From NCBI GenBank assembly GCA_947175585.1, contig CAMWNL010000145.1, positions 1 through 5,636 of the forward strand: a DNA stretch of 5,636 bases, read 5' to 3'. This stretch comes from an uncultured Bacteroidales bacterium. Lineage in GTDB: Bacteria > Bacteroidota > Bacteroidia > Bacteroidales > Muribaculaceae. Position 1 is the stretch's first letter. Every line of letters begins with the position of its first letter. The translations under genes and the position numbers were made by a program. Shown piece after piece: positions 1,808-3,535 of this stretch. The notes beneath the pieces were generated by a model. The model saw only the letters and a program-made list of their open reading frames with translations. It did not search any database and was not told where the DNA came from.

Positions 1808-3082
1808 TTAGAGCAGCGTCATGTTGAAGTCATCGATAAATGCGTCAAACTCCGGATTGGATTTCCGCATGTGAGCGAGCACTTCGCGCTCTGTCCAGGT
1901 CTTCGGTGATGAGGGACCGTCTTTCAACGCCACACTCAGCGTGAATTTGTCATTGACAAGACTATTGCGCATATAGTTGACTATATCTTGCAGACTGTCA
2001 TTGACGAGGCCGACCTGGATGTCATTTTCAACAGCTACGCGGAAGTTATCACCGTCGATGCGTTCCGGCGCGCAGTTACGCATAATGTTGACAAGCAGAT
2101 GAGCCGTGCCGTGAGACTGCATGTATGAATGCCAGAAGTTGATGACCGCATCGTCAGTGTAAGCCATAGTCCTGACTTCATGGACGACAGTGGTCGCAGT
2201 GGCTTCAGACTCGGCATGGGTCGTCTTGCGCAGGGAGAGACCGGGTGTGCGCAGGCGTGGCCGTGCAGCGCCTCCCTGCGGAGGTTCAGGCTTTGCGGCC
2301 GGTTCGGCTACAGTCTGGACGGTCGCCGGTGACGCAGACGGCGGAGTCTGTTGACGGTATGTCTGGGCCGGCGCGTAATTTGAGGAGAAAGCGGCTATCG
2401 GTTTTAACTGCCCCTCTCCATCGCCGCAATCACTGTGGGAGGGGCTGAGTGGTTGGCATAGCTTGATCAACATCAGTTCGACAAGAAACTGCTTGTTGGC
2501 CGCCTGCCGGTAATTAAGGTCGGTGGAGTTACATAGATCCATCGCCTTGTAGAGGAACTCGGGCTTGCATTTAGCGGCTATCGCTGCCATTTCTGATTTC
2601 AGTTCGTCAGGCACTTCGAGCAGCGGCAATGTGTGGGGACTCGCCGCGAGCATGATGTCGCGTATATACAGCGCCAGACCGTTGACAAAGAACTGTGAGT
2701 CGAAGCCTTTGTCGCGTATCTGCTTGTAGATGACCAGCGCCTGAGGCACATCGTTGGCGATGAACGCATCTATGAGTTTCTTATAGTAGGCGTGGTCGAG
2801 CACGTTGAGATTGTCTATTGCCGACCGGTAGGTGATGTTGCCTCGCGATGATGCGGCAACCTGGTCGAAGATCGAAAGGGCGTCGCGCATTGCGCCGTCG
2901 GCTTTGGCTGCTATTACAGCCAGAGCGGCCGGGTCGGCGGTGATGCCTTCCTGAGTAGCTACATACGACATGTGGTCAACCATATCGCGAATGGTGATGC
3001 GGTTGAAATCATAGATCTGGCATCGCGACAGTATGGTCGGTATCACTTTGTGTTTCTCGGTGGTGGCCAGTATGAATATTAC
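1808..3082 (-). CDS. dnaX: DnaX C-terminal remainder after the internal stop
   Basis: The frame is open for 424 codons after the stop. It starts with sensor 1 (ILATTEKHK, 155-163 in full-length numbering), then the SRC arginine-finger motif (S170-R171-C172), the lid with sensor 2 GAMRDALS (R217), and the oligomerisation collar to about residue 360. A low-complexity Pro/Ala/Thr linker follows at about 361-458, then a C-terminal domain at about 459-575 that resembles the polymerase-binding end of tau. The first plausible restart codon is a GTG at 3044-3046 (codon 164, where relatives carry Val or Ile), 36 nt after the stop; it would give 412 residues without sensor 1. I see no convincing ribosome binding site before it. 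The strong preservation of this half argues that it is, or until recently was, translated as part of the whole gene. I found no long A-run for tau/gamma slippage. Confidence 0.82.
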   Translation of the reverse strand, partial: VIFILATTEKHKVIPTILSRCQIYDFNRITIRDMVDHMSYVATQEGITADPAALAVIAAKADGAMRDALSIFDQVAASSRGNITYRSAIDNLNVLDHAYYKKLIDAFIANDVPQALVIYKQIRDKGFDSQFFVNGLALYIRDIMLAASPHTLPLLEVPDELKSEMAAIAAKCKPEFLYKAMDLCNSTDLNYRQAANKQFLVELMLIKLCQPLSPSHSDCGDGEGQLKPIAAFSSNYAPAQTYRQQTPPSASPATVQTVAEPAAKPEPPQGGAARPRLRTPGLSLRKTTHAESEATATTVVHEVRTMAYTDDAVINFWHSYMQSHGTAHLLVNIMRNCAPERIDGDNFRVAVENDIQVGLVNDSLQDIVNYMRNSLVNDKFTLSVALKDGPSSPKTWTEREVLAHMRKSNPEFDAFIDDFNMTLL

Positions 3083-3535
3083 TTATGACGGCGGCTCTTC
3101 AAGAGTCTTGAGAAAGGCGTTGAAGGCCTGATTTGAGAGCATGTGGACCTCATCGATTATAAACACGCGGTAGCGTCCCCGGGTAGGGGGGAGCTGCACC
3201 TGCTCGATCATCGCCCTGATATCATCCACACCGTTGTGCGACGCCGCGTCAAGCTCGACTATGTTGAGCGAACGCCCCTCGTTGAAGTCATTGCATGAGT
3301 TACAGCAATTGCATGCTTCACCGTCGGGACCCGGATTCTCACAGTTGATGGTTTTTGCAAAAATACGCGCACACGACGTCTTGCCCACACCGCGCGAGCC
3401 GCAGAAGAGATAGGCGTGCGCGAGTCGGTCGGTCGCAATAGCGTTTTTTAAGGTTGATGTCAGCGCCGGTTGCCCGACCACTGAGGCGAAGGTCGAGGGT
3501 CTGTATTTTCGGGCCGATACAATATATTGTTCCAT
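3083..3535 (-). CDS. dnaX: DnaX N-terminal fragment (150 residues, up to the internal stop)
   Basis: This is the portion that would be translated as written. It carries the first half of the AAA+ ATPase domain: the RKYRPSTFASVVGQ nucleotide-binding entry (9-22), Walker A GSRGVGKT (46-53), a four-cysteine zinc module (C65, C75, C78, C81, with an extra C77), the DAASHNGVDDIR block (96-107) and Walker B VFIIDE (124-129), ending at LEEPPS (145-150). It lacks sensor 1, the SRC arginine finger, the lid and the oligomerisation collar, so it should be unable to hydrolyse ATP properly or join a clamp-loader ring. A candidate promoter (boxes at 3569-3572 and 3542-3549) lies just upstream. The fragment is expected to be non-functional unless the stop is an error or is read through. 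Confidence 0.85.
   Translation of the reverse strand: MEQYIVSARKYRPSTFASVVGQPALTSTLKNAIATDRLAHAYLFCGSRGVGKTSCARIFAKTINCENPGPDGEACNCCNSCNDFNEGRSLNIVELDAASHNGVDDIRAMIEQVQLPPTRGRYRVFIIDEVHMLSNQAFNAFLKTLEEPPS

Follow-up and report, generated by a model that had tools for sequence, protein, structure and literature searches.

An in-frame TAA that interrupts the assembled dnaX gene of a fragmented draft genome is most likely not a feature of the organism

The dnaX gene is needed for replication in studied bacteria. Its product, the gamma/tau protein of DNA polymerase III, is described by the curated profile TIGR02397 and by the E. coli structures 8gj0 and 1jr3, and phenotypes of dnaX knock-down are reported in the available part of a C. 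difficile study (PMC12548448). For Bacteroidales, the essentiality of dnaX is unconfirmed from a P. gingivalis essential-gene paper (PMC3547785), in the available text of which the term 'DNA polymerase III' was not found. Frameshifting in dnaX, ribosomal or transcriptional, is described for E. coli, Thermus and others in the accessible sections of one report (PMC3711429), and those of another trace incorrect protein-coding sequences to local errors left uncurated in draft genomes (PMC7111523). A literature search on dnaX with a premature stop codon found no described case in the leading titles and abstract openings listed. What, then, should be made of a dnaX gene in which a single in-frame stop falls inside the ATPase domain?

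The window analysed here, a stretch of 5,636 bases, is the whole of one contig (C145) out of the 409 that make up a draft genome totalling 2,170,140 bases. The genome has a completeness of 77.01% and a contamination of 2.84%, and its fragmentation suggests a metagenomic origin. The dnaX features of the window are the following.

3535-1808, minus strand: dnaX, from the ATG at 3535 to the TAA at 1808-1810, 575 codons.
3086..3535, minus strand: N-terminal piece of dnaX, 150 codons, with the beginning of the AAA+ domain as far as LEEPPS, covering PF13177 positions 2-130.
3083..3085, minus strand: in-frame TAA, codon 151, seen in this assembly and in none of the relatives compared.
1811..3082, minus strand: C-terminal piece of dnaX, 424 codons, with the remainder of the AAA+ domain, the lid, domain III and the C-terminal part.
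1808..1810, minus strand: terminal TAA of dnaX, from the translation.

Among the neighbours, Pfam identifies a sigma-54 activator with a Fis-type helix-turn-helix, a SIMPL-domain protein and TrmD; the window also holds a 107-aa frame with no Pfam match and a frame that continues beyond the left end of the contig.

The original prediction held that one in-frame TAA splits dnaX, with no frameshift and no further damage, and both the sequence and its translation agree. The TAA at codon 151 stands between LKTLEEPPS and VIFILATTEKHK (minus-strand translation, with TAA shown as X). Apart from this codon, which breaks the reading frame of the ATPase domain, dnaX is open from its ATG to its terminal TAA, and the frame does not shift across the stop. 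When the stop is read through, the product matches TIGR02397 over model positions 1-355 at 437.9 bits, above the curated cut-off of 250 bits; a single curated DnaX profile that spans both sides of the stop indicates that the interrupted frame is not a product of chance. The 161 positions of PF13177 are divided between the N-terminal piece (2-130) and the C-terminal piece (132-160), so the TAA occupies model position 131. The C-terminal piece also matches PF22608 and PF12169, and the ATPase lid and domain III are thus present. As had been claimed, the stop lies between Walker B and sensor 1, if we take these to be DEVH (residues 128-131) and ATT (residues 157-159), respectively. Neither piece by itself should be a working ATPase. 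The gene is interrupted in the assembled sequence; in the organism, judging from the comparisons below, it most likely is not.

Could the two pieces instead be made separately and form a split clamp-loader subunit, the second being translated from a start such as the GTG at 3046? This GTG, the first downstream of the stop, does open a frame of 412 codons. It lies 12 codons past the stop, however, and residues 151-162, with the ATT stretch, would be lost; moreover, the cut falls inside one Pfam domain. Searches with the N-terminal piece and with the 412-codon frame returned no near-identical separate piece among the 120 matches listed for each, in a protein set that is clustered at 90% identity and in which such fragments may sit inside the cluster of an intact protein (P0002, below). 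With this clustering, the searches with the pieces say little about recurrence of the TAA allele. Taken together, we consider a split subunit highly improbable. Two short DnaX proteins, P0165 and P0124 (on contigs of 12,341 and 56,708 bases), stop near the same region (EEPPHTVAVSDI and ILATTE); the search, by its length limits, favours fragments of this kind, and both may be contig ends or broken genes.

How does codon 151 read in relatives? In the genus, 48 of 49 genomes, this one included, have a DnaX match above the TIGR02397 cut-off, with one such match listed per genome; in a draw from the family, 141 of 149 do, again including this one. In both sets a stop lies inside the match in this genome only. 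Nine relatives are common to the two sets, leaving 178 distinct other genomes, none of which has a stop inside its DnaX match; the count is for the N-terminal 355 positions of the model and includes a few partial matches (e.g. G046, G152). Eight family genomes have no DnaX match above the cut-off (G119, G132, G143, G155, G173, G176, G185 and G186), probably through assembly or binning gaps; three of them (G143, G155 and G185) are listed as at least 99% complete.

For the codon itself there are readings from 38 of the 48 genus relatives and from three named loci; L034, one of the three, is on the same contig as a relative's and was dropped. The resulting 40 distinct loci have 31 Tyr, 8 His and 1 Phe, and no stop. 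Among the best 120 of 7,997 homologues scored, several of the close ones being named Muribaculaceae by their sources, residue 151 is Tyr in 119 and His in one. Going by these names, the organism is probably itself a member of that family. The expectation that Tyr belongs at this codon is borne out by both counts. Within residues 1-369, no residue but that of codon 151 is private to this sequence in comparison with the same best 120 of 7,997. Farther downstream, codon 530 (1946-1948, minus strand) encodes Lys at a variable position; Lys is seen there at most once among these best 120 homologues.

An intact counterpart is found in a public protein set. P0002 is a full-length protein of 575 aa, 99% identical to the dnaX product and with Tyr at residue 151, which establishes that an intact allele exists. 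Apart from residue 151, the two differ only at residues 443, 446, 458 and 530, the last being Asn in P0002, and the next homologue among the matches listed is 89% identical. From this near-identity we infer that P0002 comes from the same species as the present genome. Its cluster has 18 members, which do not count as so many independent readings of residue 151, and a longest contig of 15,301 bases. P0002 aligns to E. coli tau over residues 4-445 (E 9e-73); residue 151 directly follows LEEPP in this alignment, and E. coli tau has His.

The reading we prefer, at a probability of about three in four, is that the consensus of this fragmented draft genome is wrong or unrepresentative at one base of the TAA at 3083-3085. 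A single error during sequencing or amplification, or one read that came from a minority molecule, would have entered the consensus of a contig that is short and perhaps thinly covered; an error of base substitution would keep the frame untouched, which matches what is seen. If so, living cells of the species would make an ordinary full-length DnaX. This reading is favoured by the absence of the stop from 178 genomes, by the intact P0002, by a gene otherwise undamaged and conserved, by the state of the assembly (409 contigs, 77% complete), and by two more lone stops found in this genome and none in a relative. Counting against it are the sparseness of stops in surveyed gene families, the absence of a damage signature and the high error rate that would be implied. 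Of the three options in the original prediction (a wrong base, a second dnaX or a decoded stop), the first fits best; the second copy was not found in this 77%-complete genome, and decoding is without support from a tRNA set that is itself incomplete.

To examine the quality of the assembly, 60 of the 409 contigs and the window, 565,797 bases in all, were compared with 58 stretches (1,146,923 bases) of G044, a relative that is 99% complete, with filtering against antisense frames. In 167 aligned blocks and 57,341 residues, 12 stops were seen, of which three, including the one in dnaX, have both flanks at least 60% identical, our criterion for a conserved site. The second is a lone in-frame TAG where G044 has Glu (G000:C9:10928, L092, + strand), with both flanks at least 80% identical; the third is a lone in-frame TAA where G044 has Ser (G000:C40:318, L207, + strand), adjacent to a Gln where G044 has Pro. 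In the other nine one flank falls below 60%, and these resemble leaders or the ends of genes. Run in reverse (166 blocks, 57,012 residues), the comparison gave four stops, of which none reached 60% in both flanks (one stood at 0.65/0.55), and no frameshift was found in either direction. Three lone stops against none are suggestive of a poor assembly and no more: the numbers are too few to separate statistically, and one of the three is the starting finding itself.

The genes with the other two lone stops may be real pseudogenes. About 3.9% of random single-base changes in the codons of this genome create a stop, and three unselected errors would mean approximately one wrong base per 2.3 kb. 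Such a rate is high for a consensus, and some of the three stops may therefore be real. Across this genome, no stop was found inside 16 ABC-transporter, 28 SusC-like and 5 class I synthetase matches, so that wrong bases, if any, are sparse. Stops flagged in relatives by such surveys have to be read with care; one TGA each was flagged in a clamp-loader-like match (G041:C12:16854-17096) and at the end of a SusC-like match (G038:C56:32-157). A codon-usage scan of 372,524 bases for same-frame neighbours split by one stop mixed in adjacent genes and antisense frames, and was replaced by the comparison with the relative.

The two other lone stops and the neighbouring Pro-to-Gln difference looked compatible with an excess of G:C-to-T:A changes, for which the differences from the relative were tested. 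Changes of this type make up 34% of possible nonsense changes. Nonsynonymous G:C-to-T:A differences were not significantly lopsided (246 versus 213, p 0.135, in a test of little power), with 161/140 and 64/52 under stricter flanks. Synonymous ones were lopsided (1,891 versus 1,472), as were synonymous C:G-to-T:A differences (5,281 versus 3,700), which fits the lower G+C content here (46.6% versus 49.3%). A damage-type signature was not found among the differences from the relative, again in a test of little power. A mutator was also considered: no mutY above the cut-off was found in this genome (G000) or in G044, G016 and G038, two of these other three being 99% complete; a missing mutY is hence not special to this genome. 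Weaker mutY matches occur in three of the four genomes; that of G044 looks like an endonuclease III-like frame, and the stop flagged in it is the gene's own end.

Might the sequenced molecule truly carry TAA? A real nonsense allele, belonging to a minority or dying lineage or accompanied by an intact copy that is missing from the bin, is in our estimate unlikely, yet deserves the most serious hearing among the alternatives. By the completeness estimate, 23% of the genome is missing, so a second copy could have gone unseen, and P0002, with its four other differences, tells us that more than one dnaX allele exists. The intact second dnaX that the original prediction had proposed to look for was nevertheless found neither by profile nor by DNA search in the recovered contigs. 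Since the genus has one match per genome, a spare copy would be unusual. The gene bears no other lesion, and a lineage should not be able to retain a null dnaX, as is established for studied bacteria. In plasmid records, 29 contain DnaX-like DNA, all of it 60-80% identical.

Alternatively, the TAA could be real, with this single codon decoded as an amino acid by a near-cognate or suppressor tRNA to yield full-length DnaX at a reduced level. We regard this as very unlikely, and equally doubtful is its corollary, a living strain with a genuine, decoded in-frame TAA in its clamp-loader ATPase gene and a DnaX supply tied to readthrough. In its favour, the frame is intact after the TAA and the recovered tRNA set is incomplete. 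A family search of the genome for tRNAs gave 16 matches; ARAGORN found no UUA, CUA or UCA anticodon in the tRNA loci and 40 further contigs, an incomplete set from which tRNA-Tyr is also missing. The suppressor tRNA that had been suggested is accordingly not among the tRNAs found, though in a set so incomplete that it does not include tRNA-Tyr, a missing UUA tRNA counts as weak evidence. RF1 and RF2 both act at TAA. In this genome RF1 is above its cut-off, as is RF2 from model position 14, its start being cut off by the start of the contig, and neither has a stop inside. With the stop in no relative, no conserved recoding signal is to be expected.

That the organism reads TAA as sense throughout, for which one conserved codon reading TAA could be cited, can be practically dismissed, and the candidate of wholesale recoding was rejected, in line with the original prediction. 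In 40 sampled contigs, TAA serves as terminator most often: of 196 open stretches with 250 codons or more, 125 end in TAA, 60 in TGA and 11 in TAG. Within the window, four genes end in TAA, as had been stated (dnaX, the sigma-54 regulator, TrmD and the 107-aa gene); the terminator of the SIMPL gene is TGA. The 57,341 residues aligned to G044 contain only two TAA and one TAG at well-aligned conserved sites, and both release factors are present.

Were the TAA genuine in living cells, the gene would offer a striking example of an essential replication protein whose synthesis passes through a stop codon. On the reading we prefer, that of a wrong or unrepresentative base, the case is mainly a caution: when a fragmented draft genome shows a single stop in one of its replication genes, this says little about biology.

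How does this locus compare with the described systems? Draft genomes with local errors, as presented in the available part of PMC7111523, resemble it in their fragmentation and incompleteness and in a private lesion within an otherwise conserved gene; there the proof comes from reads that disagree with the consensus, whereas the present lesion is read from the assembled sequence. The recoded dnaX genes of the accessible sections of PMC3711429 share with it a dnaX frame that is not read straight through. They use slippery runs and a change of frame to make gamma and tau, whereas here the frame does not change and the stop lies inside the ATPase domain and in no relative; programmed frameshifting was rejected on these grounds, with the stop absent from 178 other genomes. 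Bacterial DnaX itself is matched by its profile over both pieces, and the AAA+ domain, the lid and domain III are common to it and to the gene described here. The difference is confined to codon 151, which is TAA in this assembly, His in E. coli tau and Tyr in most relatives.
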